Shown: in pieces, positions 1 through 29,045 of the stretch
Layout: the number at the start of each line of letters is the position of its first letter
Position numbering within the stretch: the first letter of the stretch is position 1
Position numbers and translations under genes: made by a program
The notes under the pieces: generated by a model
Database searches by the model: none
What the model saw: the letters and a program-made list of their open reading frames with translations, nothing else
Told to the model about the DNA's origin: nothing
DNA from: Mikrocytos mackini
Lineage: Eukaryota > Endomyxa > Ascetosporea > Mikrocytida > Mikrocytiidae
DNA length: 46,938 nucleotides
NCBI GenBank assembly: GCA_030180075.1
Contig: JASNJN010000009.1
Location: 1 to 46,938, forward strand
Direction of reading: 5' to 3'

Positions 1-431
1 CAGGAAATTAATGCATATTATTGTGTAAAATCAACTTCCCAGCNTTCATAACCTAATATATTTGTAATAATTTTCAAAAATTATCTTGAAAATTTAATAT
101 AATTTGTTCCCACGTGCCATATTTAGTGATAAAAATCAACTTAAAAGTCATTGTAATGTGAGTACGTAGTCGGTTATTCAACCATGTAAATATGCTTATA
201 TTTATTCATTAAACAGATAATCTGCAATAATTGGCCAATATTCAGAGTATTTTGTTGTTCGTAAGGCTCGGAAAAAACCCAAAAAACCATTTTTAAATTT
301 TGAAAAAACCTATACTAGAGTACTCACCGAAAATGTTAAATATGCACAATATGGGGCTAATGTGAGTATATAGCCGTTAGATGGCATTATTTTCCGTATT
401 TCTGGTAAAAATCATGATAAAATTGGTCTGG
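1..431. other. AT-rich DNA without a recognisable gene
   Basis: I see no convincing coding sequence on either strand. One ambiguous base is at position 44. The stretch should contain, or lie beside, the missing left end of the iteron element whose right end is at 549, but I could not find a mirror-image iteron cluster here. Confidence 0.6.
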
Positions 432-549
432 GTGTGGGAATTGGAAGATAGTGTGGGAAATGGAAGAAAGTGTGGGAAATGGAAGAAAGTGTGGGAAATG
501 GAAGAAAGTGTGGGAAATGGAAGAAAATGTGGGGTGACGATTTATAGCC
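432..549. mobile_element. Right terminus of an iteron-array element (19-bp tandem repeat)
   Basis: GTGTGGGAAATGGAAGAAA recurs with an exact 19-bp period at 432, 451, 470, 489 and 508, with a degenerate sixth copy at 527. Alone this would be a minisatellite. However, the last TGTGGG (528-533) is followed by sequence that ends a 22-nt block at 549. On the minus strand that block starts GGCTATAAATC and ends CCCACA, the same layout as the ends of the elements at 1006-1636, 1933-2330 and 14701-15202. I therefore read it as the right end of a fourth element. Its left end and target duplication were not found, so it may be truncated or start outside the window. Short open frames here (381-606) are products of the repeat. 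Confidence 0.6.
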
Positions 550-654
550 CCAGTTCTCAACGAGAAGGTGGTAGAACTTTGTGACAACTATTTGGGCTTT
601 ACGCATTGATCAAAACAAAGTCTCCGATTTATTTTACAATTGGTGAATAAACGG

Positions 655-925
655 AGTGGTATCACTAGATACCACAGCGACCTGGTAATACCCCAGTAAC
701 CTGGCCATTCATTACACGCTGAAAACCCCAAAGGAGAAGAATAGGCGAAAGTAAGTGAGTGCGACAGACTGATCTAGAAACCCTTTCAGGGTTATCACAG
801 AGCCTTAAACGGCTCTGGAGAACCAGGATGAGGCTTGGGATAAACAAAGTGAACCACCAAGTTGGAACGGAATCCATTGGTTTCACAAGGAAGGGCTGAA
901 GTGACCAGGCGACTAAACCTAAGTT
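655..925. other. GC-richer block with hairpins, ending near a TAA-rich tract
   Basis: Base composition is clearly richer in G+C than the flanks. Small stem-loops are visible: AACCCTTTCAGGGTT at about 779-793 and AGAGCCTTAAACGGCTCT at about 800-817. The block ends just before TTAATAATAATTAATTA. Possible readings are a structured RNA or the 3' tail of a non-LTR retrotransposon, some of which end in TAA repeats. I see no rRNA, tRNA or RNase P signature. A 73-codon minus-strand open frame (665-886) shows no family resemblance. Confidence 0.25.
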
Positions 926-1005
926 AATAATAATTAATTATAGGTTTAAAATTGTCGTCATTAAAGATATTTTATTAATATTTATTCCATTGCATCAAAA
1001 TGAAT

Positions 1006-1636
1006 GGCTACAATTGAATTTGCCTCAAAAAGTGTGTAATTGCCTCAAAAGTGTGTAAATTGCCTCAAAAATGTGTATATACCTCAAAATCTTGTGTGTG
1101 CCTCATACGAGTTAAAAATACCCCCAACATCTCTAAAATTTTATTTCTTTTATATATTATCTATATCTATCCTACAACTAGCCATAAACATTTTCAAAGT
1201 AATCTAAAATAAATTTATGTGTTGTGTAATGAACATTTTCTGATATTCATTTTTTAAATGTAACATAGAATAAATATCAAAATCGGAGTTTTCATAGACA
1301 AGTTTCTCAAACAAATATCACTCAAATTGCAAAATACAACGTTTAAAACAAATTAGAAGTCTTGTTTCACCATTTTGAAAAAATCGGTTCTTTGCCCAAA
1401 AATAATAAGGTTTTATAGATTAACCAGACATATAGAACAAGTTAACATTTAAAAACATACCGATTTAAACCCTACTGCATTCCAACAAGTATTATTTTCA
1501 TAATTTTAATCCTTGTAATCCATTAAAAATTTTTTTTTTTTGAGGCCACAGCACAAATGAGGCACACACAAAATTTTGAGGCAGAACTTGTAAAATGAGG
1601 CAAATACAAGATTTTGAGGCAACTACATTTGTAACC
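1006..1636. mobile_element. Iteron-array non-autonomous element A (631 bp)
   Basis: The two 22-nt ends are imperfect inverted repeats: GGCTACAATTG at the left, GGTTACAAATG reading in from the right, both closing with TGCCTCA. GCCTCA recurs inward at 1022, 1042, 1062, 1081 (as ACCTCA) and 1100. The mirror TGAGGC stands at 1615, 1596, 1577, 1558 and 1541, so there are five motifs per side spaced 17-20 bp. The element is flanked by AAATGAAT at 998-1005 and 1637-1644, a perfect 8-bp duplication. The interior is AT-rich and noncoding. GG termini with 8-9 bp duplications suit Merlin or Mutator-like superfamilies; the superfamily is an inference. Confidence 0.8.
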
Positions 1637-1859
1637 AAATGAATTAGCCTATATTGTGTTCTATCATATATGTTAAGTTTTACACGAGGTGAAATTTATT
1701 GAAAAGTTGAAATTTTAATTTTTAATTTTGTAAATTAACAAAAAATTTGTTTACGAAGAAAGGAACATTTTTCTATATTACATATGTCATTCTAAATTGA
1801 CTGTTTAAATGGAGCGGAATATTTTTATGAAATTTTATTGTCTAGAAAGTGCTCGCACT

Positions 1860-2655
1860 CAAAGTGTTAAGGATTTCCCTTTGTCTGTCTGCTTTGTGTT
1901 TTGGAAAAACTTGCATTTACCTTCCATGAACCGGCACGAGTGCCCACAGCCACAAAAAATGCCCACAGCCACAAAAATGTTTCACAATCAAAAATTTTAA
2001 ATTTTTATTTATTTTCGAAAAAAAATAAAAGTTCCTAGAAAGTTAATTTTAGTATTTAGAATAAATTATTTTTTACAAAGATATTGTTATTATCGTTCCA
2101 TCGATCAACATTAACATTATTTTGGAATTTCAATAAATTTGTGTTTTATCATAAACTATCCTGTCTATAATACATTTTTTCTATATATAATATCTCTCGC
2201 GTATTTATTTATAATTTAAAAATAATTTTGTGGTGATTAATATGATTTTTGCGATTTTGAAAAAAAAAATTGTGGCTGCGGGCATTTTTTGTGGCTGTGA
2301 GCACTTTTTGTGGCTGTGAAGAATGGTGCCCCATGAACCCCTTATTTAATTACTGCGAACAACTAATATTCGCACCAAGATATCATAAACACGGTGTATT
2401 ATGGTTTAAATAATGTTTGGATATATGATTAATTTTATATTTTATTGTATTTTGCATATACTTTTAAAAAATTATCTAGTTCAGATATCTCATGTGTGAG
2501 GACTTTGAAACATATTATATAGAAACGCTAGTCTTCAGCATATTTGATTTTTGAGCATTTTCGCAACAATTTTAATTTTTTTGATTTTTACTACTCATGA
2601 ATTTTTGAAAAATATGAAAAAAATTATTAGTTCCCCAAAAGGATACCACTTTTTA
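1860..2655. repeat. Diverged copy of the hAT-element sequence found at 32460-33190
   Basis: Excluding the insertion at 1933-2330, this stretch aligns in order with about 32460-33190. Shared blocks include GCTTTGTGTTTTGG, CTTCCATGAA followed by CCTTATTTAAT, CTAGTTCAGATATCTC, GAGGACTT and GCTACTCATGAA-like sequence. The second copy sits inside a hAT element with clear inverted ends (32274-33298). I cannot find those ends here, so this looks like an older copy that lost or mutated its termini. It is useful because it records the state before the nested insertion in the other copy. Confidence 0.65.
1933..2330. mobile_element. Iteron-array non-autonomous element B (398 bp)
   Basis: Flanked by a perfect 9-bp duplication CCATGAACC (1924-1932 and 2331-2339). 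The 22-nt ends start GGCACGAG (left) and GGCACCAT (right, minus strand), and both close with CAGCCACA. The hexamer GCCACA repeats at 1949 and 1968 on the left. TGTGGC stands at 2309, 2290 and 2271 on the right. All steps are 19 bp. The interior is AT-rich and noncoding. A paralogous site near 32552-32572 lacks this insertion and has a single CCATGAA, supporting exact boundaries. Confidence 0.85.
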
Positions 2656-2890
2656 GAGTTTCCAATTTTCCTGGAATTCTAAAACGTGATTATCGAGAAT
2701 TCAAATTTTCCATTCGGGAAACGAGAAATCTCAATTAATTTGATATTATGGCGTTTCTCGGTAAACGGAAATGGTGATTCCAGGAATGTGAAAGATTTAT
2801 GCTATGTAATTTTTAGACATAGGTGCAAATTTGATTATATATTACACCGAACAGTGCAGATTTCTGGGAAATGGTTTCTTCCATAGCGAC
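2655..2890. repeat. Fragment related to the TAGAGTTCCC hAT-type MITE
   Basis: TAGAGTTTCCAATTTTCC at about 2655 resembles the left end of the miniature element at 8478-8657 (TAGAGTTCCCAATTCCCGGG). The following AACGAGAAATCTC and TTTCTCGGTAAACGG also echo its interior. I could not find a matching right end or duplication, so this is probably a degraded member. A 66-codon open frame at 2686-2886 lies wholly inside and is not convincing. Confidence 0.4.
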
Positions 2891-3244
2891 ACGCAAATTA
2901 TTTATTTTAAGTGGTGTTATTTTGACACTCTATTTTCATTTACAGAGTTAAGGTGAAACGTAATTAATTTATTAATTCCTTGTTTGCAATTTGCTATTCT
3001 TTATATTAATTTTGAACATAGTTTGTAAATAAACCGAGTATTATTGATTTAAATACACGTAATGTCAGATAATATTCGTATTCAGATCAAAATATAGTTT
3101 AATTCATAAAATTGTAACGCAGACTGAGTGAACACATATATTTTTATACTAGAAACTACTTAAGAAACCATATTTCCTTGGTTTGAGTTGAAACGGAGAG
3201 TTTCAAACCTTCGAACAACTTGATTATAGTAATTTAATTATAAC
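2891..3244. other. AT-rich intergenic DNA
   Basis: No gene, repeat boundary or RNA recognised. Confidence 0.6.
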
Positions 3245-3420
3245 TAGGGGTCGGAAAATATATGACAAAAAATTGGCAAATATATGATTATATATGATTT
3301 TGCCAAAATCTAATTATAATTTTGAATTTTCAATAAAATAAAATATATGAATTCCTTCAAATCGGAGTAAATAAGGCAAAAAATCAAAATGAAGATTATT
3401 TTTTAAATGTTTTAAAAGTC
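3245..3420. mobile_element. Single-ended hAT-type MITE (TAGGGG...ATATATGAC family)
   Basis: TAGGGGTCGGAAAATATATG begins at 3245 directly after ATTATAAC (3237-3244). It matches the left end and interior of the element at 6136-6338 for about 110 bases, including GACAAAAA, GCAAATATATGA and ATATATGATTTTG. No matching right end with a repeated TTATAAC was found, so the 3' limit is approximate and the copy looks truncated or decayed. Confidence 0.5.
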
Positions 3421-3831
3421 GATGGAAGGTCAGCATTAAGAACAGCTAAAAATCAACATAAGTCATTTTGAGCTGATTTAGACCCTTTCACTTGCAGAAG
3501 CGATTTCCTCTAATTCAACTATATAGCAGCTTCATATTTTGATGTATTATCCAATTATTAAGTTATTAAAACAATTATATATATATTGTTTTCCAACTCT
3601 TCGAATAGGTTTGTTGCATGTTCAGGATGTTATGTCGCGATTCACTATCATACATCGTGTGAAATCGAAGTTCTCTACGAAACAGTGGTGTCTAAATTAA
3701 ATTGAGATGATTGTCTTAAACAGTTGTTGAAATGTTATTTGTAAAAGTCTGTCTCTTTTCTTTCTTGTTTGGAGTTATTAGCGGCACTTCAAACTCACAG
3801 TTGAACCTTAGCACGAAGTACTTAAATCTCT
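3421..3831. other. AT-rich intergenic DNA
   Basis: No gene, RNA or repeat boundary recognised. Confidence 0.5.
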
Positions 3832-4170
3832 TTAATAGGTTAAACGCTGATTTCTTTGAAGACTAACCTTAACAGCTTGTTCGATGGTTAAACAGGATTT
3901 TATAACGTTTATATCGCCTGTATATGCGATGAATCGACCCAACTCCCCGTAGTTCTTCCCAATTGTTGGATCTTTCCCCTGTGTAGAATGAGAAGTCATC
4001 AGTCTTAGGCTGTTGGTTGTCTGTGTTGAGATGTTTCTTTGGCGGATCTTCTTCATTTTCCTGTTGTATGGACGGGTTTGTTATGATGTTGTTTTGAATT
4101 GGGTAGTTGGAAATCATCGGAAATTCCCTGGTATCGCTGAGAGTGTCTATGCCAGCGTGCACTAACTTTT
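3832..4170 (-). pseudogene. Possible decayed coding fragment, identity unknown
   Basis: Two overlapping minus-strand open frames (3869-4162 and 3832-4056) have polar, protein-like composition rich in E, D, N, Q and R, unlike the Phe/Lys/Ile bias of chance frames in AT-rich DNA. A frame change in the overlap near 3900-4000 would join them. Neither frame begins with a convincing ATG at its 5' end. I recognise no family; a retroelement relic is possible. This is weak evidence and the call is tentative. Confidence 0.22.
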
Positions 4171-4595
4171 TTAAAAAATTATTTTATAAAACAAAGATTC
4201 TAGATGGAAAAGGATGTAACACGATCTCGTTTGGGATTATAAGCGCATGTGTTCAGTTACCACCGACTTTTCAGATCTCTTGTAATTTCAAACTTTTAAA
4301 AATTAAAAACCAAAAAATTACATACAAACAACCCCTATGCAAGCAATAATACAAGAAGTTGACCGAGAAGTTGCTCAAAACAACATAATACACAATATAC
4401 CGAAGCTACGGTGCCTGGCATACACGTATAAAATTTGGGTTGTGTATATATTAATTTAATCTATATTGCTACATAGTAATTTTTTAATTTCGTCATATTT
4501 GCCGTGATCTTCTAAGAAGCATGGTCTCCCTTTAGCTTTTAGATTATTTTCTTTTATTTCTATTTAACATTGTGTCGCTTCATATCTTATTTTTT
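4171..4595. other. AT-rich intergenic DNA
   Basis: No gene, RNA or repeat boundary recognised. Confidence 0.5.
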
Positions 4596-5280
4596 AAGTT
4601 GAATTGAAAAATGCCACAAATTTCCAGTTTTGATTTTCCCGTAAAATAGCTATGCTCAAAAAATTTTTTACCCAAAACATGTTTTTATCGCTTTTTAAAC
4701 ATTTTTGTTCTAATAATTTTCTTGAATTTTTAAGGGGGTGGTGCATCGGAAAATTTCAAAAAAGTTTAAGTTCAAAAACACAAATATTTTTGAGAATTTT
4801 TTTGGAAGTTTTTTAGCGCATGTATTTTCAAGAAATCTACAAAAAGAAACTTTTAAAAAATTGAAAATATTATGATCAATTTAATATTTAAAATTAAATA
4901 ATGGTGTATTAAACACCTATTCTTGAGGTATCAATACAGCGATTTTTTTGGAATTTTTTTCAAAAATGCATTTTCATTGAGATCATGCTCTTACCATGTC
5001 TAAAAGATTTTTGTAACCATTTTTGGCCTCATTTAGTAACATTTTAGAGGTGACTTTTTGACCAAAAATATATATTTTTAAAAAAATTCAAAAGTATAAA
5101 ATTATAAAAACGTGTTTTTGGGCAATAAAAATGTTTTTTGGCTAAAAATTTTAGGTAATATTTTTCCAAAATTTATTGTCTGATAAATAATTCGCTGTTT
5201 TCAAAAAAAATTTTTTCTGAGCATGGTTACTTTCTGGGACAATCGAAACGCCAAATTTGCGACATTTTTCAATTGAGCCC
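4596..5280. mobile_element. 685-bp foldback-type element with ~75-bp inverted ends
   Basis: The left arm (about 4600-4675) and right arm (about 5205-5278) are imperfect reverse complements. Landmarks on the left are ATTGAAAAATG, CACAAATTT, ATGCTCA and AAAAAATTTTTT; their complements occur in reverse order on the right. Candidate 8-bp duplications are TATTTTTT (4588-4595) and TATTTTTG (5281-5288), 7 of 8 matching but of low complexity. The interior is very A/T-rich, with runs of A and T and no coding potential. The arms could pair as a long hairpin. Confidence 0.6.
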
Positions 5281-5288
5281 TATTTTTG

Positions 5289-6127
5289 TTGCGGGTTATT
5301 CAAAAGAATGGAATTTATTATAGTTTGAATCAAGCCCTAATAAACCGGGAAATGTCCAATTTAAGTTTGTCAACTTAAAAGTGCTGTCCGAAACAGCGAC
5401 CTGGTCGTATTTCTTATAGTTTTTTCATTGTGTTTGTTTGGTATATTACACTCATCGAATGATATTCGTTATTTTGATTGTTCCAACAAACCCCATAGTA
5501 TTTAGTGTTTTTAAGTAATCATCAATAGATACTGTCTTCGGTTGTCAGAGAAATATGTTGTTTATACCTTTTACACTATAATATTTATTTGCAATTCTTA
5601 TTGGAAATTTAGAGAAACTACGAGTAAGGGTATCGTTATTTCGAAAAAATTCTATATTTTATAGGCGGATTGTAGTTTGTATTTGTTATATTTCCCTTAG
5701 AAATTCCCGGACTTGTTGTTGGGATTTTATAAATTTCAAGTTCGTTTTTAATTATTTATACGCTGAAGTAAGCCTAATAGTTGCTTTTCTGGGTTGTTGT
5801 GTTTTTGTTGTAGATTCTGATTTCTTTAACCAAAGGTGTTAGTTTTTTCTCGATTTGTGGACACTTTCCCGATCCAATCGGATCGAAACCAGCCGGAAGG
5901 ACATTATAAAATCTTATTTTCTAATCCAACGGGATGTGTCTTCTTTATTTAAACATAATATAAGTTTTGATATAATATTGTGTTATTAAACCCGCCATTT
6001 TACATAAATCCCAAACCAATCATTTAAGGTTAATTATAAGGTTTATATATTTAATTAAATATGACGTAAATATACTGTCAACTCCGTTAATAACAAAAAA
6101 CTTCGTTATATCCGATCAACAAATTCA
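5289..6127. other. AT-rich intergenic DNA
   Basis: I see no coding sequence, RNA gene or repeat boundary. Only short chance frames are present. Confidence 0.5.
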
Positions 6128-6135
6128 GTTACGAC

Positions 6136-6338
6136 TAGGGGCGGAAAATATATGACAAAAATCGCAAAATATATGACGATATATGATTTTGGTTAAAATC
6201 TCATAATAATTTTGAAATTCCAAAAATTTCAATAGGATAAAATATACGAATTTCATAAAATCGGGATAATTATGGGTAAAAATTTCCTTAAATTTGGTAA
6301 AAATCAGAGTTGTACCAAATCACATATTTGCTGCCCTA
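6136..6338. mobile_element. hAT-type MITE, TAGGGG family, complete copy (203 bp)
   Basis: The left end is TAGGGGCGGAAAATATATGA. The right end read on the minus strand is TAGGGCAGCAAATATGTGA. Flanks are GTTACGAC (6128-6135) and GTTATAAC (6339-6346), 6 of 8 matching, as expected of an aged hAT duplication. The partner copy at 42030-42226 has nearly the same length and the same target motif. No coding capacity. Confidence 0.65.
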
Positions 6339-6346
6339 GTTATAAC

Positions 6347-7248
6347 AAATTAAGGGTTTGCTAGGAAAAGTATTGATACCAACCAATAATATATACGTTT
6401 AGTATATATTTCCATCATTTTGATATTTTGGGAATACCTCAGAGGTCGTAAAATTCAACTACCCCGTTATAAGCGATGATTTGCTATATTCGAACAAAAT
6501 TATAGAGGAAACCAGCCCATTTTTGACGATTTCGTTATATCCGGAGTTGACTGTATGTATGTTTAATGGTAAATACATCTTTTGTGGTACTTATCTGATC
6601 AAATAAAGCATAGATGCTTGTAATTTATAGTTGGCCTTAAAAACGTTTTAAATGGGTTGAATTCGTTTGAAGTAATCCAGTATGATTTGTAGTGTCATGT
6701 ACATTGCCATGCATTAGGTATTAAAACAAAGCCATAGCCGTGTTTTTGTGGGTGGAAATTATCTATAGTGTTGTATTACATGGTGTAAAATTATTACGAC
6801 AAAAGGATAAGCAAACTGTGCAATTAAATTTTTTATTTAAATGAACGATCGCAAAGGAGAATCCTTCCGGAAGATCCGATATTATTTCATGTTTTATAGG
6901 AAATAAAGTTTTACAGGAAATGTTTGGATTGGTCAAAAATGACTTACATTGATTTCCAGTTGCTTTTAATGCTAACGATTCGTCAATTTTTTAAAATTTC
7001 CAAAAATAATCAGAAATTAACGTTTTCAATCTGCCTCCATATCTGAAGGCTTTATGTTTCGGAAATTTTGAGCATCAGGACCAAAATAAATCAGTAACCG
7101 AAACAAAAACGAATTTAGATCAAAATATTTTTGGCACACTAAATTTGTGTTGGGAAAGTCAATACCAAATCCATAATTCTAACATTTTGGTCAAATTTTT
7201 TGCGGACCACCAGTCCACTCTTTCTGAGCTATCTGTTTCTTTTTTTTT
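6347..7248. other. AT-rich intergenic DNA
   Basis: No gene or defined repeat recognised. The segment ends at a T-run (about 7230-7242) just beyond the gag-like relic. Confidence 0.5.
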
Positions 7249-8165
7249 TTAGGTTGGAGATTTTTTAATCCGCTTCATCTCTGTCAGTTTATCTTCCTTA
7301 CACATCTTCTCGTACCTTTGTACCTCTTTCAAAATTAACGCGATACCTTTCGGTGGATCGTCCAACAGACTGCGTCTTATCTCCCTCGCTGGTAATCCTT
7401 CGATGAATACAATTCTCAGTATACTCTCGTCTTCCAATCCAAGTGCATATTTGTGCAATTTCTCCCGCAGTATTGCGGCAAATTTGCGTTTGTTTTCGTC
7501 AATTCCTTGTCTTCTATTCGGGAACTTATTTCTTAGAACAGTTCAGTTCTTGACGGGGTAGAAATGGTTCTCAATTAGCACACTCTAATCTCCAATAAAC
7601 CCTTTTGGTCCATGTGGCGTCTTTAGTAGCTTCTTTTTTGCCAAGCCTAGGAACATTAGGAAAATCGTTTGTTTTGTCTATTATCCTTAACCACAGTTCC
7701 CGTCACTACTAGGTATGTTTAAACTCGTCCAACCAACCACTCAAGAAAATCATGTGAGGCCGCTCCTACAGTCGTCCACAACGGTGCAGGAGCGGGGATC
7801 GCGAGCATATCCCTTGTATCGGCTTGTGAAGCCACAGGTTCGCCGTAAAACGGCTCTTCCTGATACTCCGTTATTTCCAAGCTATGTTGTTGGGGATCCT
7901 CTTGTTCCTCTTCCGTTTTACGGTCTTTAATTCTCGACCACCTGTGCTAGTTTCGTATATTTCACTCGCACTAGTTTCCATATCAGTGTAGCTTTCTTAT
8001 CCACCACACTATGTTTCATCTTTCTTCTGCAGTAGTTCATTTAATACGCATACTTCTTTTCCTGGTTTGCACGTACTGCCTCCTCTAATAGTTAGTCTAT
8101 TTTATATCATGTGGTTTTCCTTCTCGGACACATTCGTCCCCCACTTGTCAAAACTACTAGTACTA
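7249..8165 (-). pseudogene. Decayed Ty3/gypsy-like gag relic
   Basis: The minus-strand frame ending at 7249 reads through about 7540. It contains a pattern typical of gag proteins of LTR retrotransposons: a helical stretch around KFAAILREKLHKYALG, then FIEGLPAREIRRSLLDDPP, then an Arg/Tyr/Glu helix (VQRYEKM). Further 5' on the same strand, to about 8165, coding-like but frame-broken sequence continues, with better G+C than the flanks. Several frameshifts and stops separate the pieces, and no protease, reverse transcriptase or LTR was seen. Identification rests on recalled gag features and is moderate for the 3' part, weak for the rest. Confidence 0.45.
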
Positions 8166-8469
8166 GCTGCAGTGATCTTTTGCCATTTGCACCACTGCTT
8201 CTAGGTATTCCGATTAAATTTGTTGTATTATTGTCATGTTGCAAATACAGTCGTTTTATGATATTTTAATTATCTTAACCTATCACGAAATACTAAACTA
8301 AAACCCTATTCCAACAAAAAGAAGCACCTCGAATACTGCCAACACAATTATATATATAAGATATCACGACAAAACAAGGATTAAAATATAAATAAACCCG
8401 GAGAAATGAACTTTCTTTTGATAAGTATAATAAAAGTTATGAATCATTATTAAAAAATCGCCCAGAAAA
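8166..8469. other. AT-rich intergenic DNA
   Basis: No gene or repeat boundary recognised. Confidence 0.5.
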
Positions 8470-8477
8470 TGTTTAAA

Positions 8478-8657
8478 TAGAGTTCCCAATTCCCGGGATT
8501 CGAGAAATCGATTCCCGGGAACTGGACTTTTTACGTCTAAAATTCTCGAAAATTTTCAAGAATTTCGAGAATTTTTTCTCATTTCCCGAGAAATATGGCC
8601 ATAAATCCGTTTCTCGATTCTCGATAAATTTTAGGTTCGAGAATTTTGGGAACTCTA
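8478..8657. mobile_element. hAT-type MITE, TAGAGTTCCC family (180 bp)
   Basis: The ends are TAGAGTTCCCAATTCCCGGG (left) and TAGAGTTCCCAAAATTCTCG (right, minus strand). They are bounded by a perfect 8-bp duplication TGTTTAAA (8470-8477 and 8658-8665). The interior is a dense set of short inverted motifs of the TTCTCGA/TCGAGAA type. A deletion derivative of the same family is at 14412-14498 and a degraded fragment near 2655. Noncoding. Confidence 0.8.
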
Positions 8658-8834
8658 TGTTTAAAATATCAGATTTTCAGAAATTTTATATCAAAACGGA
8701 GTCAGAGTGTTCAGATTACAAAGCACTTTTATGAACAGAATCTGAACTATAATTTCCATTTTTAATATCCAGAACCAGATTTTATACCACATTTCTTAGA
8801 GAATGAGAAAATGTTCTCTAAACTTCCATTTCCC

Positions 8835-9262
8835 AGGAATGGAAATGGGAATGGAAACTAGACTTTCAAAGTCTTGATCTTGATCGAGATGCTTACCGAA
8901 AAGATTCGAGATTTTTCGATATTTAATAAAGTAGGAAATTATGGTGAAATAGTCCTTTAAATAAAGGATATGTTACTTTGTGAAAGTCAAATCCTTTCAA
9001 ACAACATCCATTATATATTCAGAAATAAGTTTCGAATTCATTATCTATAATTTGACAAATTTATAGGGATTTGGTAGTATCTTGGAATTTTTATGAATCT
9101 GGAAATTACGTAATTCTAACAAAATTCCAACGAAATGTGCTGAAAACAACACAGAAATCATGGAAAATATTTGAAAATCGATATATCATATCGATTATAC
9201 ATTTCGAGATATCGATTCATTCCATTTTCGATAATATTTTGAATGTCTAATGGAAACTCGAA
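8835..9262 (+). repeat. Left arm of a ~420-bp inverted repeat around the piggyBac gene
   Basis: This arm is the imperfect reverse complement of about 13918-14345. Landmark blocks are CAAAGTCTTGAT, GATCGAGATGCTTA, TTTGACAAATTTATA, GAAATGTGCTGAAAACAACA and CGATTATACATTTCGAGATA. Small indels and substitutions separate the two. The arm contains its own local dyad (TCGATATATCATATCGA, about 9178-9194). Whether the arms are terminal repeats of a ~5.5-kb transposon or two independent copies of one repeat in opposite orientation is unresolved. Confidence 0.7.
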
Positions 9263-11842
9263 TTTAGACTAAGTAAATCTTATCTTTGAGATTTTGCTAT
9301 GTTCGAGTTTAACATACCCAGTATAGTTTGTAAATAAAGTATTGAGCGGAAAATAAAAATGTTTAGGTTGCTAAGTAAAGGAAAATTTATTTGTCTACTT
9401 TTATTTGTAATTATTTAACACTTTCAGGACTATAAAAATCAAGAAGTTATTAGAATGTATTAACAAGTCTGGACACTTATATATAGAATATATATACTAT
9501 ATTGATTATTTGGAATTTTCATATTAGTCAACCTGTGAAATTTTTTTATGTTTGAGTTAAAAAATGTCACCTATAAAAATATTTATTTTGAGAACATATT
9601 CGATAATAGATTATATGAAAATAAAATCATAACAAGATTAGGTATATAATTACAAGACGAATAGCTCTATCTATTCCTATAAATCTTTTATGTACACTTT
9701 AAAACCAATGTTCTAGATCAGCTCTAAGCAGGTTTGAGCAGGCCATATTATGAACAGGATAGCTGACATACACTTGTATTTCGTTGGGATAAATATAATT
9801 GCAAATTATTAGATTTTTTAATTTTCAGACTTTTAGAATTTCTCCGACCACATGGCATTGACAGCCCAGGAAAACTATGGTATAGCGATAAGAGACTAAG
9901 ATGCATATATATCAACTTAATTATATCGTTAACTTGCCTGATTGAATAGTGAGAAGTTTGTAATACAGGTACTTTTGTTCTGGACCAAAGAAAGACATCC
10001 TTTCTATAGAATGACTGAAATACAAGCTGGTATAATGAAGTGTCTCTTTTCAACGTCTTTAACACATCTGTGACATAGTATATGTATCCATATCTTCAAA
10101 CAAAGAAAGACAAGAACTATAGATAACATGTTTAAGTCTTTCCAATTTAAGATGCTAGATTTAATATACAGAATAAACCAGGTTTGGTAATAAACGATAT
10201 AGAAGACATTTAAAGCTTTAACAGAGAGCTTGTTTCTATAAGTGAATTAACAAAGATATATTCATTGGTGATGAACATAAAACAAGACAAAGAAGATATG
10301 TTTTAATGAATCCATAAGACTTTGAAGTGTAACCTAATATTTAGGCAACGGATAACAGGATAAAACCTTACATGAATGATGTCTCAATTGTAGTTATATA
10401 TTTAATCATAAAAATATTCTGTAATAAATTACTATTGTATTGGGGTTATTTTCTTGTTTGTTACCCCATTTCTAAATTTTTGAATATAAAAATAATAACC
10501 AACGAGTACGTTTAAATTTGGATTATTGCAGTTTATCTAAAACATTATTCAACATTAATAATTTTAATTATTTATATCGTTTGAATTTACCTTTATTAGC
10601 AGCTTTCTCGACTAAGTTATTATATGATTGCTCGTTCATAGATTTATATATATTAAAGCTGTTCATTGTTTCTTCAGGTAACGTGTTCTACAATTTAATC
10701 TAGAAACAATGCTGTAAAGTCTTTTTCGTGCATTTTCAAGCTATGTTTCATTGTTTGATTACTACATAAGCATTATATGGACTATCTTAAGTGATATTGT
10801 AATTGTTGCTTGTTAGTTAGTTCTTTGTGCAGTACATCAAACGAAGTATTGATATAACAAGATTATATTCTATATATAACCAGTCGTCCATAATAAGGAC
10901 GTGAAAGATTAGAATTCATTAATATTGGCCCTGTTGGAAGATCTAGTAGCGCCTCAAGTTCTTTTCAATTTATAAACTTTAAAATTTACTTTTAGAAATA
11001 AAAAAGCAATTATATGACTAGCCACGAACTGACAGAACTGACAGAATTAATAGGGAGGTATATATTATTTCTAGGACGAATTACAATTTCTTTACATGAT
11101 TCCAAGAATTTAGATAACATTTCGACAGACCAACATTTAGTCGACTGGTGTTGAACGTTCAACTAAGAAGAAGAAGTAGAGTCTATTTCTGGGTTTAAAA
11201 TTTGTCGTCGTATTCGGAAAATTTGAAATGATAAAACGCAAGATCATGCGAGAGAAAGAATTAAATGGTTACTTATACAAGATGAAATCATTTAACAGGG
11301 ACAATAACAACAACGTCTTACATCTTTGTTTAAAATAGAACCCTACTATATTTTATGATAAAAATAGCTGACAATAGAATGAATAGTAAATCAAACTAGA
11401 ACCGAAAATTATATGGAATAAATGAAGCGATAATGAGTGATATTTAGGATTTGGAATATGATTATGAAAATCTTGAGGTGAATTTATAGAGTTTGTCAAA
11501 GGTTATGTGATAAGATATGTCATTGGAAAAGCTATCTGGTGGTTTGAATCTGTTATAATTATGAAGATATAATACGAGATAATTTAGATAGGATTTATAA
11601 CATGGAATTAATAAAATAATTCGATCTCAAAATAACAAATGCTAGCATAATCAATTAATTAATATTCTAAATATGTTTGTACATTCATCTTTTTCTATTT
11701 GATACTTGAATCATACATAAAAAAAACATTTGGGAAATTATAGTACAAATGTTCCGAAACGATCTATGATAACTAGTTATTAAGTAAAAGTTGTCTCTAA
11801 ACTTCTTTTCACTTCATATATTACTAAATTTTATAATACAAG
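9263..11842. other. 2.6 kb without a recognised gene, upstream of piggyBac
   Basis: Open frames at 9748-10065 (minus, non-ATG start) and 10518-10703 (plus) show no family resemblance. A perfect 14-bp palindrome GTTGAACGTTCAAC lies at about 11151-11164. I looked for TTAA-flanked piggyBac termini here and downstream of 13561 but could not pair any. Confidence 0.5.
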
Positions 11843-13561
11843 ATGAATCCCAACTCAATAACTCCATTGTCTGAATCCCATATATCAAGCGATCCTGATT
11901 ACATACCTGGTTCCTCTCCATCAGAAAGTTCATCTAACGAGATGGATAGCATAACTATGATGAACAATGGCTTATTGATCGACGACGATTCTAATGAGTT
12001 AAGCAACGCACACTTTATCCGTGATGATAACCTAGATGTAGGGAATGTGTTTGAATTCTCTCCACTTATTCCGGACACTTCTTTAGATGCTTCTTTAAAT
12101 TCGCTTAGTGTTTACAAGCATTTTGTGACTGACGAATTGATTGAAGCAGCCGTAGTTTCCACTAATGCATATGCAGAAAGACATTTACTTAGCTCCCCTT
12201 CAGGTGACTTAGATGAAGTTGTATCTCAATGGCAGCCAATTACAACGAAGGATATTTGGCTATTCCTTGGTGTGAAGCTTTATATGGGCATAGTTAAGCT
12301 GCCTTCGATTAAGGACTACTGGAGCAGAAATCCCCTGTACGAGAATTCTCTTGTGCAGAAAATAATGGCCAGAAATAAATTTGAGAATATTTGGCGTAAT
12401 TTGCACTTTAATGATTCTGATCATTTAGTGTCTAATTATAAGTTAAAAAATCTTGAATATTTGGTCAAAATATTGAATAATGGGTTTAAAAATACATGGG
12501 AAGCTCGAAAAACGCTGGCAATTGATGAAAGTCTAGTTGCATGGAAAGGAAGACTTGCTTTCAGACAATACATCCCCGGAAAAGCCAGTAAATATGGCGT
12601 TAAGATATTCAAACTAACAGATACTTCGGGGTTTGTCTTTTCGATGAAGATATACACAGGGAAAGAGCCTGCCAGAACAGATATATCTACAACTCCCTTC
12701 TCTATAGTAAAATCTTTAATGACTGACTACTTTGGGCGTGGACATATGTTGGTGACCGACAATTTCTACACAAGTCTGGAACTTGCTAATTATTGCATAG
12801 AACGCCAAACCAATCTTCTTGGGACAGTACGGTCTAATAAGAAGTTCTTACCAGACGAGTTTAAGAACAAAAAGCTACGACGTGGGCAAGTAATAAGTCT
12901 AATACGTTCTGATTTCGTTAGAATAATGAAATGGAAAGACAAAAGGGACGTTGTCATGCTTAGTACATGTTTTGACTCAAGTATGGTACAGTTAGAGCCA
13001 CGTTTTGTGGGAGAAGAAACACGCCATAAACCAAGAATGGTAGTTGAGTACAATAACACAAAGTTCGGTGTCGATGTTTCTGACCAGCTTGCATCGTATT
13101 ATGATGCTACGAGGAAGGGGAATAAGTGGGATAGGAAGGTTGCGATTAACATATTGTTAAACACGGTCGTAGCGAATGCATTTCTAATAAAGCGAGGAAA
13201 CAGAAGTAGATACACTTTGCGTTGTTTCACAGAGTCGCTTGTCAAAGATATCTTTGAGGAGTATGGAAGTGATAGTTCTTTGGCAAAGATTAATGAACAT
13301 AAACTTTTAAAGAATAGCGAGAACAGAAAAAGATGCAAGTTTTGTTATAACAAATATGTGTTCAGTGGATATAACGAATCACTTAAAAGAAAAGCTAATA
13401 ATAAGATTACGACATATTGTCCTGCTTGTAACATGGATGAATTTCAATGTTTATCCTGTTTTGTAGAGAGACATAAAAGTTTTAAAAAGAATAGTGCGGC
13501 GGGGAAAATGGATGAAAGCGATGAATATAACGAAGGGTACTGGCAATGGGAAAATAATTAA
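11843..13561 (+). CDS. piggyBac-family transposase, apparently intact
   Basis: A 572-residue DDD transposase that cuts and pastes piggyBac-type DNA at TTAA. It begins at an ATG and runs without interruption. An acidic, Ser-rich N-terminus (about 1-60) precedes the catalytic core. The family signatures are visible: IDESLVAWKGRLAFRQYIP with Asp228, VTDNFYTS with Asp306, and FGVDVSDQLASYY with Asp411 and Asp414. The 78-residue spacing between the first two aspartates equals that recalled for the Trichoplusia ni enzyme. A Cys-rich C-terminal domain (CKFC at about 498-501, then CPAC and CLSC) provides the end-binding zinc module. Two ~420-bp inverted repeats lie outside it (8835-9262 and 13918-14345). 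No TTAA-flanked termini were identified, so element borders are unknown. The full catalytic set suggests recent activity or a retained copy. Confidence 0.95.
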   Translation: MNPNSITPLSESHISSDPDYIPGSSPSESSSNEMDSITMMNNGLLIDDDSNELSNAHFIRDDNLDVGNVFEFSPLIPDTSLDASLNSLSVYKHFVTDELIEAAVVSTNAYAERHLLSSPSGDLDEVVSQWQPITTKDIWLFLGVKLYMGIVKLPSIKDYWSRNPLYENSLVQKIMARNKFENIWRNLHFNDSDHLVSNYKLKNLEYLVKILNNGFKNTWEARKTLAIDESLVAWKGRLAFRQYIPGKASKYGVKIFKLTDTSGFVFSMKIYTGKEPARTDISTTPFSIVKSLMTDYFGRGHMLVTDNFYTSLELANYCIERQTNLLGTVRSNKKFLPDEFKNKKLRRGQVISLIRSDFVRIMKWKDKRDVVMLSTCFDSSMVQLEPRFVGEETRHKPRMVVEYNNTKFGVDVSDQLASYYDATRKGNKWDRKVAINILLNTVVANAFLIKRGNRSRYTLRCFTESLVKDIFEEYGSDSSLAKINEHKLLKNSENRKRCKFCYNKYVFSGYNESLKRKANNKITTYCPACNMDEFQCLSCFVERHKSFKKNSAAGKMDESDEYNEGYWQWENN

Positions 13562-13917
13562 TTAATGGAATGTTATTTTCATATATAAAATTCCATTTGA
13601 TTATTATCTAAGTATTTTTATGTTGTATATTATAAATATGATATAAAAATATCATGATTAGCTTTAATATTAATGAAAGAACATATATCAATATACATCT
13701 TAAAATAAAATAAAAGTATATTATTAGAGTTTGCAAAAGAATTTTAGTTACAATATTTCCGTTATATACGCCATGTTGCGACATTATAATTTAATTAGAA
13801 TTAGTTTTCACTTTTTATATTCCACATTTTTTAAATATTTTAGGAAGGTTTTGTGCTTAAAATGGTGAACTTAACATACAAAATACATTCGAAATACTAT
13901 TTTATAAAATTTTTATT
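13562..13917. other. AT-rich 3' flank of piggyBac
   Basis: No gene recognised. Any right terminus of the piggyBac element would be expected here, but no TTAA-bordered end matching an upstream partner was found. Confidence 0.5.
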
Positions 13918-14345
13918 TTAATTCAAAATATAGTTTCCAATAGACATTCAAAATTTTATCGAAAATAGAATGAATCGATATCTCGAAATGTATAATCGAT
14001 ATGATATATCGATTTTCAAATATTTTCCGTGATTTCTGTGTTGTTTTCAGCACATTTCGTTGGAATTTCGTAATTTCCAGATTCACAAACATTTTCAAAA
14101 ATACTACCAAATTTCTATAAATTTGTCAAATTATAGACAATGAATGTGAAAGCTTGTTTCCGAATGTATAGTAGATGTTGTTTGAACGTTTTACTATTCC
14201 ACCAAATGGAATATGTTTTATTTAAAGGACTATTTCAACATAAGTCCCCGTTATATTAAATATCGAAAATTACCTCGTTTCGATAAGCATCTCGATCAAA
14301 ATCAAGACTTTGAATGTCTAATTTTAGGGAATTGGAAATTTTTTT
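13918..14345 (-). repeat. Right arm of the ~420-bp inverted repeat around the piggyBac gene
   Basis: Reverse-complement partner of 8835-9262. A 65-codon open frame (13913-14110) lies within it and is a repeat by-product. The stretch just distal to it holds the 87-bp MITE at 14412-14498, while just distal to the left arm is the 180-bp MITE of the same family at 8478-8657. The whole arrangement is therefore roughly mirror-symmetric. Confidence 0.7.
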
Positions 14346-14411
14346 AATATTAATTATAATGGTATTAAATATCAAGTAGCACATCTGTGAGTTTAATAAT
14401 TATTTTATGAG

Positions 14412-14498
14412 CAGAGTTCCCAATTCCCGGGAATTAAGGCCTAAAATCCGTTTCTTGATTCTCGAGAAATTTGTGGTACGAAAAAATTGCTAACTCTA
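14412..14498. mobile_element. Short hAT-type MITE, TAGAGTTCCC family (87 bp)
   Basis: The left end CAGAGTTCCCAATTCCCGGG and the right end (minus strand) TAGAGTTAGCAATTTTTTCG are flanked by TTTATGAG (14404-14411) and TTTATGTG (14499-14506), 7 of 8 matching. The interior shares TAAAATCCGTTTCTTGATTC with the 180-bp copy at 8478-8657, so it is an internally deleted relative. Confidence 0.7.
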
Positions 14499-14668
14499 TT
14501 TATGTGTATTGTATGTAAAATTGGAAATTTTAAATTCTGTATTGTAAAACAGGCTTGTGTATAGATGAATTTCGGTTTAAATAAAAGGCTTTAGATTTTG
14601 GCGATTTAGTTAAGGCTTTTATGATAAGTTTCCTATTAGTTTCTACATCGAATTTAATAAATGTAAAG

Positions 14669-15550
14669 CAGAGTTTAGAATTTTACTCAAATCTAGAACC
14701 AGTTTAATTCGAACTGGCCACATTTCTACCAACTGGCCACGATTCTTCCAAATAGCCACAAAAATTCGAACTGGCCACATTTCTTCCAAATAGCCACATT
14801 TATGGGCACTCAATTTCTAAAAACTCGAGCATACGCCAATAATATAATTTCTAATACTGAAAAAACGATTGAAATTATCAAATTAAAATAAGAGGTGCGA
14901 TTTTCACCGCTATTTAAGAGTATATCTTGTTGCGACAAAAACGTGGCCAGTTCGAATTTTTGTGGCTATTTGGAAGATTTGTGGCCAGTTGGAAGAAAAA
15001 ATGCCGAACATATTTGAACTAATTTTTAAAAAATTTTAAATGGTTTAGAACATTCTTTATTGTATAAAACTAACTAAGCGTTAATAAAAAGTACTAATAT
15101 TACCGATTTACCATAATAGCCACCAAACAACGAAATCCAAATGTGGCCAGTTCGAATTTTCGTGGCTGTTTTGGTAAAAATGTGGCCAGTTATAAGTCAG
15201 CCTCTAGAACCCGGTCCGAACCACCCCGCCTTCGGGTCGAGCGGGAAATCTGTAAGCATTTTTCTACTAAAAAATTAATTTCAACAATTTAAAAATTTAA
15301 TGATATCCAATAATAACGAATCAAAGCTTGAAATGTTTTGTTTTAATTTGTTTTCATCTAAGCATCTAATATTAGAGCAAATTAACTATTTAATAAATCA
15401 AATTATTAATATCTAGTGTAAATTAGTGAAATGGTGCATATTTTTAAAAGTGCATCCATGTGAGAGTTTTTAACGTTTTGGCCTTCTTCCGCCCGAACCC
15501 GACTCGTATGGGTCAGGTTCGGACGGTCGGGTCAGAAATTCTCAACTCTG
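14669..15550. mobile_element. hAT-type non-autonomous element interrupted by element C
   Basis: The left end CAGAGTTTAGAATTTTACTC pairs with the right end (minus strand) CAGAGTTGAGAATTTCTGAC. Flanks ATGTAAAG (14661-14668) and ATTTAAAT (15551-15558) match at 6 of 8. Subterminal G+C-rich dyads (GAACCCGGTCCG on the left; CCGCCCGAACCCGAC and GGTTCGGACGGTCGGG on the right) stand out from the AT-rich background and recur in the smaller element at 32706-33009. The iteron element 14701-15202 is inserted 32 bp from its left end with a clean 9-bp duplication, so this hAT element is the older insertion. Confidence 0.65.
14701..15202. mobile_element. Iteron-array non-autonomous element C (502 bp)
   Basis: Flanked by a perfect 9-bp duplication TCTAGAACC (14692-14700 and 15203-15211). 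The 22-nt ends start AGTTTAATTC (left) and GGCTGACTTA (right, minus strand) and both close with AACTGGCCACA. GCCACA-type hexamers stand at 14717, 14736, 14755, 14774 and 14793, exactly 19 bp apart. Inverted copies stand at 15181, 15161 and 15142 near the right end, and at 14942, 14961 and 14980 internally. The internal inverted cluster suggests a deletion or duplication history, or a shorter nested derivative. Noncoding. Confidence 0.85.
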
Positions 15551-27668: not shown

Positions 27669-29045
27669 ATGCCAAGGACTAGACAGAATGACGCCGAACT
27701 ACGAAAGAAATACGCCCACAAGCACGACAAAGAGTTTTATGAGACCAAATCTGGTCTACTCTGGTGCAGGGTGTGCGACAAATCGATAAACTACAATAAA
27801 AAATCTGTGGTTCAACAGCACAGACTGACAAAAACACATTTAAAAAACTTATTCGGTATAACAAATACAGAAAATCCTATTAAAGCATGTTCTATGTACA
27901 CTTTTAAAAAAGACTTAGCCACGGTTTTTCTCAACTGCGGCATTCCCTTAAAAAAATTACGTTATAAAAATCTTCAAGAATTTATCAAACAATATGATTT
28001 ACCATTAGTATCTCAATCCAATGCCTCTAACCAAGTTAAAGAATTGGGCGAAGAGAATAGAAAGAAGATAACTGCCACAATAAAAGACAAATTCATTTTT
28101 ATAATTATTGATGAATCTTTTATTAAGGATAAATACTGCGTGAATATTCTTATTGGAGATATACAAAATCCAAATCAAAGCTACTTATTGGATTGTATGA
28201 TTTCAGAAGAGCCTGTTAATTCCGATTTTGTCGTAAGAGCAATTGATAACTTACTTGTCAAGGAAGGTGTCCAAAGAAGTAATTTCTGCTTGTTGTTAAG
28301 CGACGCAGCCAAGTACATGACAAAGGCGGCTGGGTTCTTACATGTTCTTTTTCCAAACCTCTTTCATATGACCTGTCTAAGTCATTTAATGCACAATTGT
28401 GCTTTAAAAATAAAAAGTTATTTTACATCTACTAATAACTTGATCTCGGCTATGAAGAATCTAGTCGTAAAGAATAAAAGAAGAAGAAAACTATTTCAAC
28501 GAATTGGATGTCCACCTACTCCTATAATAACTCGATGGCAAAGCTGGCTTAATGCTGCCAAATACTATTACACAAATCTTACAGAAGTGAAAAGAATAGT
28601 AGAAAAGATTGATACACCGGGAAAGATAGTAAACAATGCTATTTCAGCACTGAACCAAGCTGAACTTGTAGAAGAACTTAGAGCAATCAACAGTTATCAT
28701 GAGGTTCTTAATCCTATCTCTACTTTGCTCGAAGAGAAGCGCTTGAATATACAAGAAGGGTTTGAAGCTATTGACAATATAGAATTTAGAACTGACGTAG
28801 TAGGATTAAAGGGATATATAACAAAGAGATTAACGAACAATGAGATATATAAGATCATTCATTGGCGAGTTTACACTCCTAATATTGATTTAAGAATCAT
28901 TGACGGGTTAATGAGCTGCCAATGCACATCAGTCGATGTTGAAAGAAGTTTCAGCATGTTGAATAAACTTATGGCTGATAACAGGGATTTCAAAGACGAT
29001 AATATTAAATATTACATTATGTCTTATTATAATAAAGATATTTAA
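27669..29045 (+). CDS. hAT-superfamily transposase, intact (CGGBP1-like type)
   Basis: A 458-residue hAT transposase, short but complete in layout. An N-terminal BED-like zinc finger has Cys33, Cys36, His51 and His57. The RNase-H fold has FIIIDES (Asp148) and LLLSDAAKYM (Asp212), followed by CLSHLMHNC (Cys236, His239) and the conserved RW at 289-290. The C-terminal dimerisation region has TSVDVERSFSML with the catalytic Glu425. The SDAAKYM and zinc-finger style resemble the CGGBP1-like hAT group of animals. There is no internal stop or frameshift. It could mobilise some of the many small hAT-type elements in this window; that link is inference and needs end matching. Confidence 0.9.
   Translation: MPRTRQNDAELRKKYAHKHDKEFYETKSGLLWCRVCDKSINYNKKSVVQQHRLTKTHLKNLFGITNTENPIKACSMYTFKKDLATVFLNCGIPLKKLRYKNLQEFIKQYDLPLVSQSNASNQVKELGEENRKKITATIKDKFIFIIIDESFIKDKYCVNILIGDIQNPNQSYLLDCMISEEPVNSDFVVRAIDNLLVKEGVQRSNFCLLLSDAAKYMTKAAGFLHVLFPNLFHMTCLSHLMHNCALKIKSYFTSTNNLISAMKNLVVKNKRRRKLFQRIGCPPTPIITRWQSWLNAAKYYYTNLTEVKRIVEKIDTPGKIVNNAISALNQAELVEELRAINSYHEVLNPISTLLEEKRLNIQEGFEAIDNIEFRTDVVGLKGYITKRLTNNEIYKIIHWRVYTPNIDLRIIDGLMSCQCTSVDVERSFSMLNKLMADNRDFKDDNIKYYIMSYYNKDI

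Follow-up and report, generated by a model that had tools for sequence, protein, structure and literature searches.

What kind of mobile element ends in a short tip followed by a row of evenly spaced hexamers, and which enzyme reads such an end? The question is raised by a 46,938-nt stretch of Mikrocytos mackini DNA (contig JASNJN010000009.1 of assembly GCA_030180075.1; the whole stretch is called the window, or contig C8 of the assembly), in which a first-pass annotation, made from the sequence alone, had marked seven such ends. Direct reading of the sequence places the seven ends as described and assigns them to four families: A at 14701-15202, B at 1-549, C at 1006-1636 and D at 1933-2330. 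In all four, a 22-nt tip of the form GG-N14-hexamer is followed inward by NCCNCA hexamers every 19-20 bp, the hexamer being GCCACA in A and D, CCCACA in B and GCCTCA in C. GG starts six of the seven ends, the exception being the left end of family A, which starts with AG. Our explanation, which we consider likely, is that A to D are non-autonomous transposons of the Mutator superfamily, resembling miniature inverted-repeat transposable elements (MITEs), and that the transposase of longer Mutator-like elements (MULEs) reads the hexamers and cuts at a fixed distance from them with a 9-bp stagger.

The terminal plan of four element families

The window elements and their parts are as follows.

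1..549, minus strand: family B element, the right part of a copy of about 0.8 kb whose left part lies beyond the contig start, recognised by its match to locus L053
432..549, minus strand: family B right end, with a 22-nt tip at 528-549 (GG N14 CCCACA) and six CCCACA hexamers in 19-bp steps
998..1005, plus strand: left copy of the 8-bp duplication AAATGAAT of the family C element
1006..1636, plus strand: family C element, 631 bp, with tips at 1006-1027 and 1615-1636
1022..1106, plus strand: family C left array of five hexamers, four of them GCCTCA and one ACCTCA, with steps of 19-20 bp
1541..1620, minus strand: family C right array, in which four GCCTCA follow 19-bp steps (1558-1620) and a further hexamer lies at a 17-bp step (1541)
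1637..1644, plus strand: right copy of the 8-bp duplication AAATGAAT of the family C element
1924..1932, plus strand: left copy of the 9-bp duplication CCATGAACC of the family D element
1933..2330, plus strand: family D element, 398 bp, with GCCACA in 19-bp steps at both ends (two left, three right)
2331..2339, plus strand: right copy of the 9-bp duplication CCATGAACC of the family D element
14692..14700, plus strand: left copy of the 9-bp duplication TCTAGAACC of the family A element
14701..15202, plus strand: family A element, 502 bp, a non-autonomous relative of the longer element at L031:310-4975
14701..14801, plus strand: family A left tip and array, five hexamers (four GCCACA, one GCCACG) in 19-bp steps
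14943..14998, minus strand: family A internal inverted array
15139..15202, minus strand: family A right array (two GCCACA, one GCCACG) and 22-nt tip GGCTGACTTATAACTGGCCACA (minus strand)
15203..15211, plus strand: right copy of the 9-bp duplication TCTAGAACC of the family A element

The arrays are mirrored: the right array of the family C element runs opposite to its left array, and small copies carry mirrored arrays at their two ends. The first-pass annotation had recognised both the mirroring and the step of about 19 bp, and erred in allowing two to five hexamers, as the end at 432-549 has six. That end it had also taken for a solitary one. Window positions 1-533 align with positions 270-802 of the family B element at L053 at 95% identity, and positions 528-549 with its right tip (816-837) at 100%. 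On this alignment, 432-549 is no solo end: it closes, on the right, a B copy that starts outside the contig edge and is truncated by it.

The window arrays were also recovered by Tandem Repeats Finder and by a repeat search. None of the four window elements contains an ATG-started open reading frame (ORF) of at least 100 amino acids. When one element per family was compared (BLAST, E up to 0.01), the interiors had nothing in common beyond the iterons except for a 25-nt match between A and B (E 0.009) and a 20-nt match between two MULE-bearing elements on contigs C451 and C573 (see below).

The spacing is far from what shuffled sequence produces. Runs of three or more NCCNCA hexamers at 18-20 bp steps number five in the window; in 200 dinucleotide shuffles they average 0.005 and never exceed 1. 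Pairs at a distance of exactly 19 bp number 19 in the window, and the shuffles give 0.36 on average and 3 at most. Computed without a step limit, the lag spectrum of the window peaks at 19, with at most two pairs at each other lag from 7 to 37. The pattern scan of the whole 13.6-Mb, 733-contig assembly that the first-pass annotation had proposed returned many matches: CCNCA pairs at lag 19 number 1892 (946 + 946), against 146 (70 + 76) for the reversed pattern, and at lag 23 the corresponding figures are 151 (82 + 69) and 101 (49 + 52). At lags of 9-29, GCCTCA pairs occur at 455 places against 5, and CCCACA pairs at 781 against 80; the family A iteron pair, with up to two mismatches, gives 126 + 125 against 27 + 49.

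The distance from array to tip is regular, too. Among 149 array starts, counted without tip templates and taken from the window and the fetched loci after de-duplication by sequence (many of them being copies of few families), 123 have a GG whose first G lies at offset 22, measured from where the first hexamer ends; the next most frequent offset, 23, is found in 34 of the 149, and one start can count twice. Over the same starts, with only 18-20 bp allowed, the steps are 19 (431), 20 (82) and 18 (9). Element lengths vary in steps of about 19 bp as well. The copy numbers of B, C and D are lower bounds, with at least 40 genome matches each, those of B being matches to the end at 432-549.

Contigs C9 (6325-7050 and 22997-23936), C10 (9338-10187) and C14 (23344-24257) carry pairs of mirrored arrays whose core letters or spacers differ from those above. 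They are probably further families of the same plan.

Target-site duplications and mobility

Do these elements move? Ends were located with eight 22-nt templates starting with GG, with at most three mismatches, and repeated 20-nt flank pairs were removed. The sample comprised the family A loci, 30 of the 40 B matches listed, 20 of 40 scored places each for C (including the one on contig C706) and D, and the window; for C and D, places that cover both ends were selected, a choice biased towards intact copies. Exact 9-bp duplications were found in 36 of 84 distinct flank pairs, an 8-bp duplication in one, and duplications of 7, 10 or 11 bp in none. By family, the exact 9-bp duplications amount to 8/17 flank pairs in A, 6/24 in B, 7/21 in C and 15/22 in D, and A, B and C each have one further pair with a single mismatch. 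When the left border was shifted outward by 1-5 bp and the right border left in place, no match was seen in any family; of 1706 ordered pairs formed from the left flank of one locus and the right flank of another, 12 matched, 9 of these within family A. In the window itself, the duplications are those reported at first, perfect over 9 bp for A and D and exact over 8 bp for C. Because exact 9-bp duplications stand at the predicted borders and none at the shifted left borders, we conclude that the elements are mobile. All three checks that the first-pass annotation had named (genome-wide matches, duplications at the borders and the 19-bp period) have thus given positive results.

Some junctions are unusual. 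The family A loci L012 and L049 each hold half of the other's duplication, and the 9-bp flanks of the A copies L005, L023 and L017 are likewise exchanged between loci. Window positions 1000-2330 and contig C706 (L081:67-1398) have a segment in common at 98.8% identity, with different flanks outside. On both sides, the limits of this segment nearly coincide with the outer tips of elements C and D, which points to recombination in the elements or to assembly switching.

The swapped A flanks, the C8/C706 junctions and the inverted flanks at C451 and C633 (see below) suggest some mis-joining or recombination at repeats. Are the arrays themselves then a product of chance or of the assembly? The shuffle, reversed-pattern and period controls, together with exact duplications at predicted but not at shifted left borders, leave this a negligible probability.

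A MULE gene between family A ends

The long, transposase-coding copy that the first-pass annotation had suggested looking for exists. On contig C451, a 4.67-kb element (L031:310-4975) has family A tips and six hexamers at both ends, with inverted arms of 373-374 nt that are 99.5% identical over 374 aligned positions. The sole ORF of at least 80 amino acids in L031 lies on the minus strand (4600-2795) and encodes 601 amino acids. The protein matches PF10551, the MULE domain, with an E-value of 8.6e-16 (58.6 bits, cut-off 27.6), and otherwise only a weak ZSWIM RNase-H model. Aligned with six other MULE proteins of the genome, three of which lack most of the N-terminal part, it has 39 invariant columns. 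These include D238, D304 and E415, which we take to be catalytic residues, and C545, C547, C556 and H558. The protein ends with CSC...CDH, and by eye this C-terminal CxC...CxH resembles a SWIM-like finger. No FLYWCH match was obtained for the C451 protein at E up to 0.1 or for seven other MULE proteins at E up to 1, of which those of C76, C643 and C395 lack most of the N-terminal part; a divergent finger could escape such searches. Elsewhere, one distant relative was found (29% identity over 47% of the query; 7994 candidates scored from 5.8 billion); viral contigs yielded none among 132 pattern matches, and a sequence search found no solved structure.

Because an element with A ends on both sides encodes a MULE transposase, sequence comparison supports placing family A in the Mutator superfamily. 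The suggestion of a Merlin- or Mutator-like enzyme is thereby narrowed for this family to the second: the A transposase has no IS1016/Merlin-type Pfam match. We also rejected hAT for family A, as 9-bp duplications occur in 36 flank pairs and an 8-bp duplication in one, and the transposase is a MULE protein. The window A copy resembles the L031 element in tips and arrays and in little else. A second locus, on contig C276, has a family A tip, an array and the first 364 residues of the protein at 99% identity, with a different flank.

Directly outside the L031 element, positions 143-309 and 4976-5142 form an inverted duplication. Another flanks the array-bearing element at L123:1050-1812; these duplications are about 125-167 bp long.

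MULE genes elsewhere in the genome

How general is the association of such ends with MULE genes? At least 150 MULE domains occur in the genome, a count for which 150 of 419 candidates were scored, and the C451 protein has 77 matches in it. We examined 15 MULE loci (on contigs C451, C276, C573, C7, C633, C407, C76, C643, C421, C395, C57, C48, C52, C511 and C85), which were picked mostly from the best matches of the C451 protein and not at random; the MULE pieces on C32, C151 and C417 were left out. An NCCNCA array lies upstream of the MULE gene at six of the 15. It consists of GCCACA on C451, C276 and C573, mostly of GCCCCA on C7, and mostly of TCCCCA on C407 and C57 (the latter by eye). The tip measures 22 nt on C573 and C407, 21 nt on C7 and 23 nt on C57. 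On contig C19, an upstream array was placed by coordinates only (array at 10288-10368, MULE match from 11142). The plan thus belongs to part of the MULEs of this genome, not to all of them.

Other arrangements were seen near MULE genes. The C421 locus (L127) carries a MULE gene of another lineage, with a 591-aa frame, between plain inverted repeats of 188 nt that are 97% complementary, without NCCNCA arrays. Arrays with steps of 19-20 bp lie near other MULE genes at L126:700-790, at L128:1260-1311 and, weakly and by eye, at L133; their words include TTTCCC and TTTCCTGA, and they are possibly a diverged version of the plan. On contig C417, two MULE-like coding pieces (11209-11517 and 12034-12297) are separated by a family D copy (L110:537-914) whose 9-bp duplication is perfect.

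A model for end recognition

Together, these data suggest a model in which each end, a 22-nt GG tip followed by two to six NCCNCA hexamers at 19-20 bp steps and mirrored at the two ends of the element, would be recognised through its hexamers by a MULE transposase from longer elements, most likely by several protomers side by side and presumably in a cooperative manner. The row of protomers would hold a catalytic domain at the tip, at a distance of 22 bp from where the first site ends, and there the transposase would cut. Strand transfer with a 9-bp staggered cut would then leave the 9-bp duplications, and because of these duplications this last step is the one that we take as established. The arrays had at first been described as being in fixed phase, which holds for the spacing and not for the face of the helix. 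DNA has about 10.5 bp per helical turn; since 19 bp correspond to about 1.8 turns, neighbouring hexamers face different ways, winding round the helix. A row of protomers that follows the groove is possible, and a face-on row is not implied by the spacing. NCCNCA alone is frequent by chance, and a fixed row would supply a specificity that a single motif cannot; excerpts of a report on Galileo contain a similar argument (PMC3688188).

Several observations weigh against this reading. Nine of the 15 MULE loci have no upstream NCCNCA array of their own: besides C421, these are C643 and C395, which have 19-20 bp arrays made of other words, C633, with an array-bearing insertion beside the frame and a downstream array facing away, C76, C48, C511 and C85, where no NCCNCA array was seen, and C52, where the stretch appeared coding throughout. 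No right end was found for the C573, C7 and C407 elements by duplication and tip match; the AT-rich 9-mer of C7 recurs downstream without a tip before it, C407 has a one-mismatch copy without a tip, and C573 has none. Among the first 100 places listed for each of B and C (of 781 and 455 pattern places in the genome), there was no full-length transposase-coding copy and, by coordinates, no link between the arrays and MULE genes; no transposase was found for D ends, at which no pattern listing of their own was aimed. The C451 element has no target-site duplication, and its present site is not a simple insertion, since some 167 bp to its left and right are inverted repeats of each other. An exact 9-bp duplication is absent from 48 of the 84 flank pairs, and flank exchange between copies, real or assembler-made, explains some of these and not most. 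The A copies of the window and of L013 share their 12-nt flanks on either side; here a single insertion, lying in a duplicated stretch, may have been counted twice. Finally, part of the regularity is built into the search: tips start with GG at 159 of 168 ends, a count raised by templates that begin with GG and allow three mismatches, and the NCCNCA pattern fixes four of the six hexamer letters, so that their invariance is partly given.

Could the arrays of MULE MITEs instead have arisen by slippage, as minisatellites, or be read by a regulator of host or element origin (promoter function, anti-silencing) rather than by the transposase? There is precedent in the VANC proteins, which bind short tandem motifs in VANDAL elements, according to excerpts of PMC5735166. 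On C573, C7 and C407 the array was seen on the upstream promoter side only, the 19-bp steps in element length would suit slippage, and the spacers of family B are 90-91% identical, a point against our reading in that slippage alone could make the B array. The fixed 22-nt offset to the end and the mirrored arrays of small elements without an ORF of 100 amino acids are better explained by end recognition, and in A, C, C573 and C407 the spacers diverge far more than the hexamers, of which the pattern fixes four letters. At one end of the C451 element, for instance, the two pattern-free positions are G and A in all six iterons and the spacers are 55% identical; spacer identity in the C573 array is 63%. 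We therefore regard slippage or regulation as an unlikely account of the arrays and favour recognition by the transposase.

For B, C and D a different superfamily must also be considered, be it Merlin, hAT or P-like, with GG ends and 8-9 bp duplications and a plan that has arisen by convergence. The failure to find a transposase for their ends would fit, as would the 8-bp duplication of the window C copy. Against this, B, C and D flank pairs have an exact 9-bp duplication in 28 of 67 cases and an exact 8-bp duplication in only one, the 22-nt tips and NCCNCA cores of all four families are common to elements that carry MULE genes, and MULE domains are numerous in this genome. Convergence thus seems to us very improbable, and B, C and D would, like A, be moved by MULEs.

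If transposases do read the hexamers, the core words GCCACA, CCCACA, GCCTCA, GCCCCA and TCCCCA might reflect a radiation of MULEs within one genome, in which the end architecture stays the same and the two free core letters change together with the transposase. We offer this as a tentative idea that may well be wrong. If it is true, the iterons form a code that keeps each transposase on its own elements, and the row of protomers measures the distance to the cut.

Other features of the window

A separate element occupies window positions 8855-14324. It has long inverted arms (e.g. 9119-9272 and 13918-14071, 93%) and contains a 572-aa ORF (11843-13561) that matches PF13843 (DDE_Tnp_1_7) with an E-value of 6.4e-78, which we take to be of piggyBac type. 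A 458-aa ORF at 27669-29045 has a weak DUF659 match (E 3.9e-05) under the Pfam cut-off. For RNA genes, the window gave no Rfam match at gathering scores and no tRNA.

Comparison with known systems

The reports on Muta1, Tm1, Galileo, VANDAL and Rehavkus are represented in what follows by excerpts. Muta1 of Aedes aegypti, a Type 2 Foldback MULE, has a MULE transposase, 8-9 bp duplications and a 145-bp terminal inverted repeat (TIR) composed of a 10-bp palindromic tip and nine 12-bp repeats with 3-4 bp spacers (PMC5225508). A terminal motif with subterminal tandem repeats inside the TIR is present in our elements too. The likeness extends to the more than 300 putative non-autonomous copies of Muta1, which share mostly the TIR, with variable repeat number, and short subterminal tandem repeats are described for 10 of 12 long-TIR Aedes families (PMC5225508). 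The differences lie in the details: here, the tip is a 22-nt GG tip, the repeats are two to six hexamers at 19-20 bp, and the protein is encoded by one 601-aa ORF, against 504 amino acids in two exons for Muta1; an N-terminal FLYWCH finger is predicted in 13 of 14 Aedes families (PMC5225508), whereas the proteins tested here have no Pfam FLYWCH match. Tm1 of root-knot nematodes, a Mutator/Foldback family, likewise combines a MULE transposase, mostly 9-bp duplications, MITE-like copies and TIRs with variable numbers of a repeat of about 14 bp (PMC3169594). Unlike the present elements, it has a repeat unit of other length and sequence, 7-bp asymmetric end motifs and a Phantom-type transposase (PMC3169594).

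Three further systems share single aspects. Galileo, of the P superfamily, is a functional precedent, in that the THAP domain of its transposase binds several tandem-repeat sites in long TIRs; its transposase is P-type, however, and its TIRs are far longer (PMC3688188). In VANDAL elements, which are MULEs, each family has its own tandem motifs, and these co-vary with a DNA-binding protein that the element encodes; this binder, VANC, is an anti-silencing factor, however, and its motifs are found in introns and in non-coding regions upstream (PMC5735166). Rehavkus is MULE-related and has a 9-bp duplication and a minisatellite near an end; it differs in placing the minisatellite before the 3' TIR and in its PHD finger (PMC6446971), a domain for which neither the C451 protein nor the other MULE proteins tested gave a match.

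MULEs with subterminal tandem repeats are thus already known from Muta1 and Tm1 (PMC5225508; PMC3169594), and the plan is not new in kind. The first-pass annotation had limited itself to microsporidia; its statement that it knew of no such plan from these agrees with the open-licence literature, in which we found none: the terms MULE and Mutator are absent from the main text of PMC4202319 and PMC7313128, PMC10759460 mentions the MULE domain once, in a legend, and the one Mutator-like MITE family that PMC4405373 lists for Nosema bombycis has 10-bp duplications and a 5-bp TIR. Within the same literature, which makes this weak evidence, we found no description of the 22/19 geometry with one core across several families of a single genome. 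The signature GG N14 NCCNCA followed by 19-20 bp steps can serve the annotation of such elements in gene-sparse genomes. The end repeats of Foldback and Phantom elements are known, and their role as transposase sites was called untested in 2013, in the excerpted report (PMC3688188). The same plan in several families, with short, clean and differing motifs, and a MULE gene between matching ends make this a question that can be put to the test.

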